Assembly: GCA_016867975.1 (NCBI GenBank)
Contig: VGIC01000006.1
Coordinates: forward strand, 1 to 64,000
Reading direction: 5' to 3'
DNA length: 64,000 nt
DNA from: Betaproteobacteria bacterium
Lineage (GTDB): Bacteria; Pseudomonadota; Gammaproteobacteria; Burkholderiales; Methylophilaceae
Positions within the stretch are counted from its first letter, which is position 1. Every line of letters begins with the position of its first letter. Made by a program: the position numbers and the translations under genes. The notes under the pieces were generated by a model, which saw only the letters and a program-made list of their open reading frames with translations, was not told where the DNA came from and did no database searches. Shown piece by piece: positions 32,735-37,632 of the stretch.

Positions 32735-32876
32735 TTAGCCACAGATAAACGCAGATACACACAGATAAAATCAAGCCTCATGTATAGTTTTTAAAAATGG
32801 CTGTTAGTTAAAAAGTCACAGTGCTCAGAAAAACCAGAATATTAAATCTGTGTACATCTGCGTTTACCTGTGGTTA
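32735..32876. repeat. Imperfect 32-bp inverted repeat between lysC and alaS
   Basis: Left arm 32735-32766 and right arm 32845-32876 are reverse complements with four mismatches, around a 78-base AT-rich centre. Each arm holds repeated CAGAT units (for example CCACAGATAAACGCAGAT). The right arm reaches into the alaS stop codon. It looks like an intergenic repeat or small non-autonomous element, or a large hairpin in the mRNA. Confidence 0.7.
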
Positions 32877-35510
32877 ATTTAGTTTTTCCTTTACCCAAAT
32901 TTCTACGCTGTTGAGTGCTTTTGGTAGCTGGCTGGCATCCGTACCACCCGCCATTGCCATGTCCGGCTTACCTCCGCCTTTTCCCCCGACTTGCCCTGCC
33001 ACAAAATTAACCAACTCTCCCGCTTTGATTTTACCGATTAAATCAGCGGTAACGCCTGCTGCCAAGCTTACCTTGCCATCGTTGGTGCTTGCCAGAACAA
33101 TCGCTGCAGATTTTAATTTATCTTTCAGCCTGTCCATGGTTTCACGTAAGGCATTTGCATCGGCACCCTCAAGCATTGTTGCAAGTACTTTGATGCCACT
33201 CACTTCCAGCGCCTGTGTAGCCAAGCCATCTCCTTGAGTGGAGGCAATTTTGGATTTCAAGCGTGCCAATTCTTTTTCCAGTGATTTTGCATGTTCAGAA
33301 AGCTGGGCGACTTTGTTGACCAGTTCCGTGGCAGGTGCTTTGAATTCTTCGCTTAATTTTGCGATGAGTGATTGCTGAGCATTGATGAGCCTCAGTGCGC
33401 CTTCGCCTGTGGTGGCTTCTACGCGACGTACGCCTGCGGCAACGCCACTCTCTGATGTGATTTTGAACAGACCGATGTCGCCAGTGCGGCTTACATGGGT
33501 GCCGCCGCACAGCTCGCGTGAGCTGCCAATGTCCAGTACGCGAACTTCATCACCATATTTCTCACCAAACAGCATCATGGCACCAGTTTTTTGTGCGGAC
33601 TCAATGTCCATGATACGTGCTTGAGTGGCTGAGTTAGCAAGAATCTCTGCATTAACAATCTGCTCAACTCTTGCAATCTCAGCATCATTCATTGGTGCAT
33701 TGTGTACAAAATCGAAGCGGGTTTTATCGCCATCCACCAGTGAGCCTTTTTGCTGCACATGCTCGCCTAAAACTTCACGCAGCGCTTTGTGCATCAAGTG
33801 TGTGGCTGAGTGGTTACGCATGGTGTTGGCGCGCGCCACTAGGTTCACATTTGCCTGAATCAAGTCCCCAACATTCAGCGTGCCAGTTTTTAATATGCCG
33901 TGATGTCCAAATACTGCCGCCTGAACCTTTTGCGTATCTTCTACTGCGAAAATGCCGTTGCCACCTTTGATGATGCCGCTATCGCCGACTTGTCCGCCTG
34001 ACTCGGCATAGAAAGGGGTATTGTCTAAAACGATGATGCCTTGGTCACCTTCGGTAATTTGTTGCACCTGTACGCCATCTTTGTAAAGCGCAACGATTTG
34101 TCCAACCGTTTCCAGCTTTTCGTAACCGTGGAATGTTGTTGCTACGCCATTGTATTCAAGGTTGGCTGTCATTTTGAACTTGCCGGCAGAGCGAGCCTGC
34201 TCTTTTTGGCGTGCCATGGCTGCATCAAAAGCGACCGTATCAACTGTTACGTTACGTTCGCGACAGATGTCTGCAGTTAGGTCGAGTGGGAAGCCGTAAG
34301 TGTCGTGCAGTTTGAATGCCGTTTCACCATTGAACACATCTTTGGTATTGGCGAGCTCCGCTTCCAGAATGGTCATGCCATTTTCAATGGTTTCAAAGAA
34401 GCGGTCTTCTTCGAGTTTCAGCATGTCGGCGATACGTGATTGGTTCGTAAACAGCTCAGGATAGGCTTCGCCCATCGCCGAGACTAAATCAGGCACGATT
34501 CTATGAAAGAATGCCGCGCGGCTACCCAATTTGTAGCCATGACGAATCGCTCGGCGAATGATACGACGTAATACATAGCCGCGACCTTCGTTGCCTGGAA
34601 TCACGCCATCAGCAATCAGGAATGAGCATGCGCGGATATGGTCGGCCAGTACTTTGAGTGACGGGCTGTTCAAATCTGTAGCTTTGGTTTCACGGGCAGC
34701 GGCTGCGATGAGTTTTTGGAACAGGTCAATTTCATAGTTCGCATGTACGTGCTGCAACACGGCAGAGATGCGCTCCAGCCCCATGCCGGTATCAACACTT
34801 GGCTTGGGCAATTTGTGCATCACGCCAGCTTCGTCGCGATTGAACTGCATGAATACGTTGTTCCAGATTTCGATGAAACGGTCACCATCTTCATCCGGGC
34901 TGCCTGGAGGACCACCGAAGTGGTGGTCGCCGTGGTCATAGAAAATCTCTGTGCATGGGCCGCACGGACCGGTATCGCCCATCATCCAGAAGTTGTCTGA
35001 TGCGTAGCGTGCGCCTTTATTGTCGCCAATGCGGATAATGCGCTCAGTCGGCACACCGATAACTTTGCTCCAGATGTCATAGGCTTCGTCATCTTCGGCG
35101 TACACAGTGACTGTGAGTTTGTCTTTAGGTAGCTTAAAAACTTCCGTCAGCAGCTCCCATGCATATTTGATGGCATCCTCTTTGAAGTAATCACCAAAAC
35201 TGAAGTTACCCAGCATTTCAAAGAAGGTATGATGGCGAGCGGTATATCCCACATTCTCAAGATCGTTATGTTTGCCGCCGGCGCGCACACACTTCTGGCT
35301 TGATGTTGCACGGGTGTAGGGGCGTTTATCGAAGCCAAGAAACACGTCCTTGAACTGGTTCATGCCTGCGTTGGTGAATAGCAGTGTCGGGTCGCCATGC
35401 GGAACCAGAGAACTGGATGTCACAACTTCGTGACCTTTTGATGCGAAAAAGTCCAGAAAAACCTGACGGATTTCATTACTACTTGGGGTGCTGCTTAGTT
35501 TAATTGTCAT
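32874..35510 (-). CDS. alaS: Alanine--tRNA ligase
   Basis: 878 residues. Class II catalytic domain at the N-terminus ([16 protein letters not shown]-like start, [21 protein letters not shown]), tRNA-recognition domain, editing domain with HSATHLMH and [13 protein letters not shown] zinc-site residues, and the C-Ala domain ending [15 protein letters not shown]. Charges tRNAAla and hydrolyses mischarged Ser/Gly-tRNAAla. Lies 45 bases downstream of recX in the same direction, so recA-recX-alaS may be partly co-transcribed. Confidence 0.98.
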
Positions 35511-35555: not shown

Positions 35556-36005
35556 TTAATCAATAGCTTCGTTGTTTAATACTTTTTTAATGATTTCGAA
35601 ACCAAAACCACGGCTTTGTAAAAATCTTGCCTGCTTAGCCCACTCTTCACGACTCTGTGGGGCGTTTCTAAATTTTTTACGCCAAACCTCGTGTGCGTTT
35701 TCGAACTCATTGCCCTTAAGCTGAACAACCGCATCTGCAATCAGCTCGTTGGCGATACCTTTTTCGCGCAGTTCGTGTGCGATTCTTGCGCTACCAAATT
35801 TGACTTGTCTTGCATGCACAATCTGCTCGGTAAATCTGACATCTGAAAGCCAACCGCGTGCTTTAAAGTCATCCAGCAACGCTTCGATATCGTCTGATTC
35901 CTCAGCAAAGGCTTTTAATTTTTGCCCAAGTTCGTAATAAGAGTATTCGCGCTTTGTCAGATAATCTAAAGCACGCTGACGTAGCGACTTGACCGGCTGT
36001 TCTAT
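35556..36005 (-). CDS. recX: Regulatory protein RecX, apparent non-standard start codon
   Basis: About 149 residues if started at an ATA at 36003-36005. The frame gives PVKSLRQRALDYLTKREYS, ELGQKLKAFAEESDDIEALLDDF, then three-helix repeats typical of RecX, ending ...IIKKVLNNEAID. No ATG, GTG or TTG lies in frame between the upstream in-frame TAA (36015-36017) and a TTG at 35879, which is well inside the conserved region. An AAGGA sequence sits six bases before the ATA, so initiation there is plausible; otherwise the start codon has been lost by mutation or sequencing error. RecX binds RecA filaments and limits their growth. It lies 28 bases after recA. Confidence 0.82.
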   Translation of the reverse strand: MEQPVKSLRQRALDYLTKREYSYYELGQKLKAFAEESDDIEALLDDFKARGWLSDVRFTEQIVHARQVKFGSARIAHELREKGIANELIADAVVQLKGNEFENAHEVWRKKFRNAPQSREEWAKQARFLQSRGFGFEIIKKVLNNEAID

Positions 36006-36033
36006 TTTTCGTCCTTACTTAACTCTCTAGTAT

Positions 36034-37062
36034 TTAGTCATCCTCGCTACGAGGCGCCCCCATAATCTCGTTCAGAGCCTTCATGTTAGCGCGAATCTTT
36101 GCGTCAATTTCATTGGCGATGTCAGGGTTCGCACGCAGGAACTCACGTGCGTTGTCTTTGCCTTGACCAATTTTCTCGCCATTGTAGCTGTACCAAGCAC
36201 CGGCTTTTTCAACCAGCTTGGCGTTTACACCCAATTCAATGATTTCACCTTCACGTGAGATACCCTCGCCATACAAGATATCAAACTCAGCCTGTTTGAA
36301 CGGAGGTGCCACCTTATTCTTGATCACTTTCACGCGGGTCTCAGATCCAATAACCTCATCCCCTTTCTTAATCGCACCAGTGCGACGAATATCCAAGCGT
36401 ACAGAGGCGTAGAACTTCAATGCATTACCGCCTGTCGTCGTTTCAGGGTTGCCGAACATCACGCCTATCTTCATGCGAATCTGATTAATGAAAATCACCA
36501 GCGTATTCGTCCGCTTGATATTGCCGGTCAACTTACGCAGGGCTTGGCTCATCAAGCGAGCTTGCAGGCCCATGTGAGAGTCCCCCATCTCACCTTCAAT
36601 TTCCGCACGCGGAGTCAATGCCGCCACCGAATCCACCACCACGATATCCACAGACCCTGAGCGCACCAGCATATCTGCGATTTCAAGCGCCTGTTCGCCA
36701 GTATCTGGTTGTGAAATCAATAAATCAGGAACATTCACACCCAATTTTGCCGCATACTGCGGGTCCAAAGCATGTTCAGCATCAATAAAAGCGGCCACGC
36801 CCCCCATTTTCTGCATCTGCGCAATCACAGAAAGCGTCAATGTGGTCTTGCCTGACGATTCAGGTCCGTAAATCTCAACGATACGGCCACGCGGCAATCC
36901 ACCAATGCCAAGCGCTATATCCAGACCGAGTGACCCCGTTGAAACCGCTTGTACGTCTTCACCGATATCACTGTCGCCCATGCGCATGATCGACCCTTTA
37001 CCAAACTGTTTTTCAATTTGTGAAAGAGCCGCAGAAAGGGCTTTGGCTTTGTTGTCATCCAT
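36034..37062 (-). CDS. recA: Recombinase RecA
   Basis: 342 residues. Walker [11 protein letters not shown] at about 66-75, the LexA-cleavage/ATPase core [21 protein letters not shown]2-loop [22 protein letters not shown], and an acidic C-terminus (APRSEDD). Forms ATP-dependent filaments for strand exchange and triggers LexA cleavage. No recognisable LexA box was seen in the 70 bases upstream. pncC lies upstream in the same direction with a 69-base gap. Confidence 0.98.
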
Positions 37063-37131
37063 GGTGTTTACCTTTATTTAAAAGTGCTTGAATTAACGGA
37101 GACCTTTGCAGAAGCCTCAGCGGTCATTATT

Positions 37132-37632
37132 TCACAAATTGCTACTTATAGTAAGGTGCAGCAAGCCCTCCAGACAGACTTTCACTGCCTGCTGACGTAC
37201 CTCAGCGCGTGTTCCAGAAAAACATTTTGTCGTGGTAATCAGCGGCTTTCCAACGCCAGCCCAGCCAAAGCAGACCGTTCCAACTGGTTTATTTGCCGTA
37301 CCCCCCGTTGGCCCCGCTATGCCGGTGATGCTAGCGGCAAGATTTGCTCGCCCTTTTAACAGCGCTCCAGCCGCCATTTCTGCAGCCACTTCCTCGCTCA
37401 CAGCACCAAACTGCTCAAGATTGAATGCTGAAATGCCCAGCATGTCTTTTTTGGCTTGATTGCTATACACCACATAAGCACTATCAAACCAGGTTGAGCT
37501 TCCTGGAATCTCCGTCAATAACGCACTCACCAACCCTCCCGTACAGGATTCCGACAAAGTAAGCACACACTGACTACGAACCAGCTGTAACGCGAGTTCG
37601 TTCGCTAAAACTTGTAATGTGCGATCAACCAT
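37132..37632 (-). CDS. pncC: Nicotinamide-nucleotide amidohydrolase (CinA C-terminal domain family)
   Basis: 166 residues consisting only of the CinA C-terminal domain: TLSESCTGGLVSALLTEIPG, AYVVYSNQAKKDMLGI and GIAGPTGGTANKPVGTVCFG. This domain deamidates nicotinamide mononucleotide to nicotinate mononucleotide in NAD recycling. Its start overlaps the end of pgpA by 28 bases. Gene order thiL-pgpA-pncC-recA is common in betaproteobacteria. Confidence 0.93.
   Translation of the reverse strand: MVDRTLQVLANELALQLVRSQCVLTLSESCTGGLVSALLTEIPGSSTWFDSAYVVYSNQAKKDMLGISAFNLEQFGAVSEEVAAEMAAGALLKGRANLAASITGIAGPTGGTANKPVGTVCFGWAGVGKPLITTTKCFSGTRAEVRQQAVKVCLEGLLHLTISSNL

Follow-up and report, generated by a model that had tools for sequence, protein, structure and literature searches.

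A candidate AUA start codon in recX of a Methylophilaceae bacterium, and the recurrence of AUA, AUC and AUU at the same site in its genus

The recA-recX-alaS locus

The stretch of DNA analysed here (hereafter the window) comprises the first 64,000 nucleotides of contig VGIC01000006.1, from assembly GCA_016867975.1 of a member of the Methylophilaceae. Three genes of interest lie next to one another on its minus strand: recA (36034..37062; ATG start; TIGR02012, 574.4 bits), recX (35556..36005 as read here, i.e., 149 codons from an AUA, plus a stop), and the downstream neighbour of recX, alaS (32874..35510; ATG start; TIGR00344, 1034.2 bits). The recX frame, open over 35556..36014 on the minus strand (152 residues), is the sole recX match in the window's genome, a draft of 1.56 Mb in 44 contigs with an estimated completeness of 92.7%. 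It carries the three RecX three-helix domains (PF21982, PF02631 and PF21981), each above its cut-off, and matches the NCBIfam equivalog model NF001055 at 160.9 bits (cut-off 129); the remaining RecX models listed in the NCBIfam search fall below their own cut-offs. By its domains and the equivalog model the frame is a member of the RecX family, and its product is predicted to inhibit RecA filaments. A search for relatives of this recX in viruses confirmed none.

Downstream of an in-frame TAA (36015..36017; minus strand), the recX frame reads GGA CGA AAA ATA GAA CAG CCG GTC AAG TCG. Three codons thus separate the stop from the ATA at 36003..36005 (minus strand), the only feasible start codon in the frame. 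An initial annotation had stated that the frame contains no standard start codon (ATG, GTG or TTG) ahead of an inner TTG; this is borne out, with ATA as the only candidate between the stop and the conserved domain. The AAGGA that it placed six bases before the ATA is indeed present, at 36016..36012 on the minus strand, as a Shine-Dalgarno (SD) sequence whose duplex with the 16S tail has an energy of -4.8 kcal/mol. The next in-frame standard codon is, as described, a TTG 42 codons in (counting the ATA as 0); a GTG follows at codon 62. One detail required adjustment: similarity to other RecX proteins, said to begin two to four codons past the ATA, sets in slightly later and is strong from the fifth codon.

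The recA stop (36036..36034) lies 28 nt 5' of the recX ATA, and the intervening spacer (36006..36033; minus strand) is free of terminator-like hairpins. In E. coli, recX also lies directly 3' of recA; there, however, the K-12 gap is 68 nt, contains a 9-pair terminator-like hairpin, and is followed by an ATG-start recX, as opposed to 28 nt, no such hairpin, and ATA in the window. A test for a hairpin plus T-run that detects the E. coli K-12 example found none in the spacers of the 44 related loci described below, hairpin lengths of 14–41 included. The RNA around the recA-recX junction was also examined for a regulatory fold, and its folding energy was not below that of shuffled sequences (z = -0.11). 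No LexA box of the E. coli type (consensus CTGT-N8-ACAG from E. coli, at most one mismatch) was found near the recA start, at window positions 37062–37200; over the whole window the same pattern occurs 23 times, against 23.2 expected. Spacers of more than 100 nt were observed in four related loci with an ATA-start recX (L072–L075), and in two of these (L073 and L075) the spacer includes a palindrome-like stretch resembling a dispersed repeat.

Start codons of recX in the genus, family and order

A recX gene was found in 47 of the 52 genus genomes and in 167 of the 187 family genomes. Loci were taken from all 47 of the genus, from 80 of the 120 other family matches, and from named genomes (34 loci), giving 161 loci, of which 131 are distinct. 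Two distant loci (L063 and L064) were dropped before SD strength was assessed, and the remaining 129 received rule-based labels: 73 standard, 41 ATH (that is, ATA, ATC or ATT; AUH in the mRNA), eight ATH with a far standard start, six CTG, and one without any start. Subsequent curation (i) relabelled L053, L056, L057 and L145 as standard, (ii) kept L029, L078, L080 and L081 as ATH their TTG being located ahead of the SD, (iii) reassigned L028 to ATH, an alignment gap having masked its ATA, (iv) left out loci of less than 56% identity, including L151 and L152, and (v) no longer counted as standard a TTG that falls within the conserved K-S-L motif, as had first been done for L024, L027, L042, L050, L051 and L079.

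The recurrence of ATH at the aligned start of recX is clear. Within the genus, the inferred start is ATA in 16 loci, ATC in 14, ATT in four, ATG in eight and TTG in five; 34 of 47 loci therefore carry an ATH codon, and the 13 with ATG or TTG indicate that AUH is not obligatory for recX. Ten more ATH loci were found elsewhere in the family, bringing the total to 44 distinct loci, in which the third base is A in 18, C in 20 and T in six (invariance of the first two bases follows from the definition of the set). Over the 115 family loci of the final count, the classes are ATH 44, ATG 43, TTG 17, GTG 10 and CTG 1; L010 and L080 were labelled by hand, and the ATG, TTG and GTG counts are approximate, since ATG, and then the nearest codon, was preferred where several standard starts were possible. 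The nearest relative (L002, from genome G006), with an 80% identical RecX, also has an ATA with AAGGA upstream. Among named genomes the best match is a metagenome-assembled genome of Methylotenera oryzisoli (L031; 80%), with a recX region identical to that of L002, and other close named relatives are labelled Methylotenera and further Methylophilaceae. Methylotenera-type bacteria are known for growth on one-carbon compounds.

The surroundings of the ATH codon are distinctive. On the nucleotide level, purines occupy position -10 in 44 of 44 loci, position -9 in 35 and position -8 in 43. On the protein level, amino-acid identity among the 44 loci is 0.07–0.29 over the eight codons that precede the ATH, 0.27–0.49 at codons +1 to +4, and 0.87–0.91 at +5 to +12, the stretch that holds the conserved block K-S-L-R-Q-R-A. 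An in-frame stop lies 0–17 codons upstream of the ATH in every locus (median 4) and directly precedes it in seven. A standard start codon in frame before the conserved block is absent from 40 of the 44 loci; the other four (L029, L078, L080 and L081, all among the 34 of the genus) carry an in-frame TTG 6–8 codons upstream, ahead of the SD.

As controls, the same reading was applied to the two neighbouring genes. Of 49 recA loci with the start in view, all have a standard start and 48 have ATG at the aligned site. For alaS, the script located a standard start within reach in 120 of 126 loci, and inspection by eye placed an ATG a few codons deeper into the gene in the other six. Sampling was also extended to the order, where 193 of 200 genomes contain recX. 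In 26 of the best 30 order loci a standard start is present within codons -10 to +2 relative to the aligned N-terminus. The exceptions are L193, L196, L197 and L217, with no standard start in that range, and L196 is the only one of them without any in frame.

Two further sets of atypical recX starts were observed. In L196, from another genome of the order, CTG and ATT are candidate starts, there being no ATG, GTG or TTG before the conserved block. In Methylophilaceae with small genomes (L147–L153) and in L130, recX has no ATG, GTG or TTG in reach, and CTG codons near the recA stop are candidate starts.

Start-site strength, codon use and competing readings

Across the 44 ATH loci, the median energy of the SD duplex with the 16S tail is -5.9 kcal/mol, and it is -5.8 kcal/mol if the worse candidate is used in the four loci with two ATH codons. 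An earlier SD run gave a median of -5.9 kcal/mol for 49 ATH-labelled loci versus -1.9 kcal/mol for 2541 other ATH triplets of the same loci; that run chose the better-SD candidate in loci offering two ATH codons (four of the 44), and of its 49 loci six are absent from the final set, to which L028 was later added.

SD strength differs between the start classes. ATH starts never overlap recA (0/44), whereas ATG starts overlap the end of recA in 32 of 43 loci; the SD median for ATG is -2.1 kcal/mol in overlapping and -2.4 kcal/mol in separate cases. TTG starts that are separate from recA (16 loci) have a median of -5.8 kcal/mol. GTG starts (10 loci) have weak SDs, at -1.4 and -1.9 kcal/mol, and so fall outside a trade between codon and SD. 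The ATG of recA itself comes with an SD of -4.0 kcal/mol and that of alaS with a median of 0.4 kcal/mol (78 loci); since alaS also pairs ATG with a weak SD, this pairing is not peculiar to recX. A strong codon with a weak SD, or a weak codon with a strong SD, fits a low overall rate of initiation, in a comparison of related loci whose standard starts were chosen by rule. Equally, a weak codon may just depend on a strong SD in order to work.

To place the codons phylogenetically, a DNA tree of recA plus recX was built from 114 of 116 loci (L010 and L080, in which recA is too short, were left out). A single group of 38 tips contains 33 ATH tips and a nested five-tip ATG/GTG group. Within the 38-tip group, support values span 0.46–1.0, with 0.68 at a 34-tip node; the group's own node bears none after midpoint rooting. 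Fitch parsimony requires six third-base changes among the 33 ATH tips, and 10 changes between ATH and other codons over the whole tree. The five nested tips (L124, L125, L098, L099 and L112) have ATG or GTG starts overlapping the end of recA, an apparent switch of architecture.

Among the ATH tips the third base of the codon switches between A, C and T. Statistically, an avoidance of AUG falls short of significance: G is likewise missing from 23 of 107 four-fold sites of the main clade that have six or more changes, and from 12 of 91 four-fold sites with at least 10 changes across all ATH tips. Both comparisons are generous, the ATH tips having themselves been picked for lacking G.

Taken as a whole, the observations make it quite probable that recX translation starts at AUA with reduced yield. 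Whether the weakness of this start is itself selected is a separate matter, on which we lean, with some reserve, towards selection. The principal competing account, which we regard as rather unlikely, accepts the AUA start and holds that RecX dosage is little constrained, so that start codons drift. In keeping with drift, starts are diverse over the family (all five classes occur among the 115 loci) and the absence of G at the third base is not significant. On the other hand, the association of ATH and separate TTG with strong SDs, and of ATG with weak ones, resembles balance over decay, and ATH has been kept by 33 of the 38 tips of one clade.

The remaining readings dispute the start itself. 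The first treats the ATH as Ile within a longer RecX that begins upstream, via frameshifting or read-through from recA. An Ile codon would likewise give A, C or T and no G at the third base, and in some loci (e.g., L045) no stop interrupts the recX frame back as far as the final recA codons. Yet the codon's composition departs from that of internal Ile positions: in the main clade the 33 ATH tips have ATA 16 times, ATC 13 times and ATT four times, whereas the 23 Ile sites that are constant in recA and recX of these tips total 759 codons, of which 512 are ATT, 225 ATC and 22 ATA. ATA makes up 10.3% of Ile codons over the coding frames of the window's genome. The tips being related, no probability is attached to the ATA excess over the Ile sites. 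The stops upstream of the codon (immediately before it in seven loci, at most 17 codons away in all) and the poor conservation of the upstream residues also stand against this reading, as does the SD at start-codon spacing. It is on stops, SD and codon use together that we read the codon as a start rather than as Ile, and an extended RecX with an internal Ile at this position is very improbable.

A second reading holds that the start codon has been lost by mutation, leaving recX a decaying pseudogene in this genome, or that the base is an assembly error. ATA is indeed one base away from ATG, and the genome is a draft of 44 contigs. Against this, the rest of the recX frame is intact and constrained, and the same class of codon recurs in 34 of 47 genus members, including, with its AAGGA, the closest relative; mutation or error in this genome can hardly be the explanation. 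With regard to the initial annotation, its proposal of AUA initiation is therefore favoured by the comparison across the genus and the 44 loci, and the comparison with close relatives that it recommended returned ATA with AAGGA in L002. Its alternative, mutation of the start codon in the window's genome, is unsupported, in view of L002 and the 44 ATH loci, and so is a frame-shifted upstream start in relatives, given the stops within 0–17 codons and the little-conserved upstream residues.

Finally, initiation at the inner TTG (codon 42), which is the first standard codon in frame and would give a shorter RecX, is the least probable reading of all, because starting there (residue 46 of 152) would delete nearly all of the first three-helix domain, RecX_HTH1 (residues 12–48), and because codons 5–41 change at rates of 0.30/0.27/0.63 at positions 1/2/3 against relatives of at least 70% identity, much like the codons beyond the TTG (0.36/0.31/0.59; both from the same ungapped comparison). 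Protein-level constraint seems to act on the codons ahead of the TTG as it does on the rest of recX; synonymous sites are saturated there, so that no dN/dS is usable.

Proposed initiation at AUA, RecX dosage and the parallel with infC

The proposed mechanism consists of three steps: (i) the AAGGA SD would position the ribosome at the AUA (36005..36003) of an intact recX, (ii) the ordinary initiator tRNA (anticodon CAU) would read AUA as formyl-Met despite the third-base mismatch, and (iii) IF3 would discriminate against the AUH codon, such that only a fraction of ribosomes start. Since recA and recX are 28 nt apart and no terminator lies between them, one shared mRNA is expected, on which a weak codon would hold RecX well below RecA. 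We infer initiation at AUA, co-transcription with recA, low yield and IF3 control, and a low RecX dosage is a plausible purpose of the AUA start. The E. coli-type hairpin is missing from the ATH spacers, and the weak codon probably stands in for the terminator as the brake on RecX. An altered initiator tRNA was considered and rejected: the anticodon-arm pattern was found in one copy, with anticodon CAT, in each of 44 of the 52 genomes, and the other eight gave no match.

Published work, as far as the accessible text of each source goes, is compatible with this scheme. In vitro, IF3 is described as preferring strong third-base pairs and excluding weak ones (PMC10158994). Conserved AUA and AUU starts of Staphylococcus aureus are reported to yield about 10% of AUG, with ccpN reaching up to 30% in rich medium (PMC13009471). 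In E. coli, RecX is stated to be ~500-fold less abundant than RecA, through transcriptional and translational down-regulation (PMC9252578, citing Pages 2003), and UV resistance is said to drop both upon loss of RecX and upon its overexpression (PMC9252578).

Several known systems invite comparison. E. coli pcnB (AUU) and S. aureus ccpN (AUA), citZ (AUA) and cvfC1 (AUU) resemble recX in having AUH starts that limit expression; the starts of ccpN and cvfC1 are described as conserved in the accessible part of PMC13009471. These four genes differ from recX in that their starts are experimentally supported, and none of them is recX or a recombination gene. Mycobacterial recX, like that of the window, lies immediately 3' of recA, with which it is co-transcribed, but overlaps it by 32–35 bp (according to the portion of PMC3062782 at hand), an arrangement never seen in AUH-start recX (0/44). 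Judging by the alignments, recX would add to a known and small class of AUH-start genes. We found no report of an AUH start for recX in the literature searched, outside which most subscription journals lie; the available portions of PMC10158994, PMC13009471, PMC3062782, PMC9252578, PMC4457935 and PMC7082066 describe none, and a search of the same literature for Methylotenera together with recX returned no paper.

To our knowledge, natural AUA, AUC or AUU starts are limited to just a handful of bacterial genes (see also PMC13009471). With the recX genes of this genus, the grading of start codons by IF3 could be tested on a naturally occurring series, in which the third base shifts between A, C and T while the SD stays strong; the series would also test how cells keep RecX under RecA without a terminator. 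The presence of an AUH start in most of the genus species examined suggests a built-in means of keeping RecX scarce. In practical terms, a gene caller restricted to ATG, GTG and TTG would be expected to miss or shorten recX.

The closest parallel within the genus is infC, encoding IF3, which shares with recX an AUH start and a strong SD. It was found in 49 of 52 genomes, and in all 30 Methylotenera loci read (L162–L191) it starts with ATA, mostly in the context GGAGAA-TTTGAT-ATA (SD -6.4 kcal/mol); the copy of the window's own genome is L181 (G000:C7, about 5845). In E. coli, infC starts with AUU and is autoregulated. Unlike recX, whose codon varies between ATA, ATC and ATT and whose product acts in DNA recombination, infC encodes translation's own factor and has an invariant ATA in the 30 loci. 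An AUA start of infC is also reported for S. aureus in the accessible text of PMC13009471. A more speculative extension, which we put forward tentatively and with doubt, is that in Methylotenera recX and infC constitute a pair of genes with AUH starts that IF3 discriminates against, so that the level or activity of IF3, together with the supply of initiator tRNA, would set the ratio of RecX to RecA. If so, stress that lowers the fidelity of initiation would raise RecX and trim RecA filaments, and recombination would be tuned directly by translation status.

The coding frames of the window's genome were surveyed with a dicodon-based scan for genes whose coding sequence extends above their first standard start. 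The scan used 950 coding frames in 1.23 Mb, about four-fifths of the genome; 204 of the 950 had at least 12 codons above their first standard start, and an AUH-start gene escapes it if a standard start follows within a few codons. Seven candidates emerged, of which recX ranked first and infC, with its ATA, third. The top rank of recX, like the recurrence of ATH in 34 of 47 genus loci, speaks against a chance occurrence. The last four have low scores and poor SDs (-2.8 to +1.2 kcal/mol). The second-ranked frame (L244, about 681, minus strand) lies where contig 4 begins, has the transposase domains rve and HTH_21, and lacks a standard start of its own. This frame resembles orfB of IS3-type elements, which is usually produced by frameshifting.
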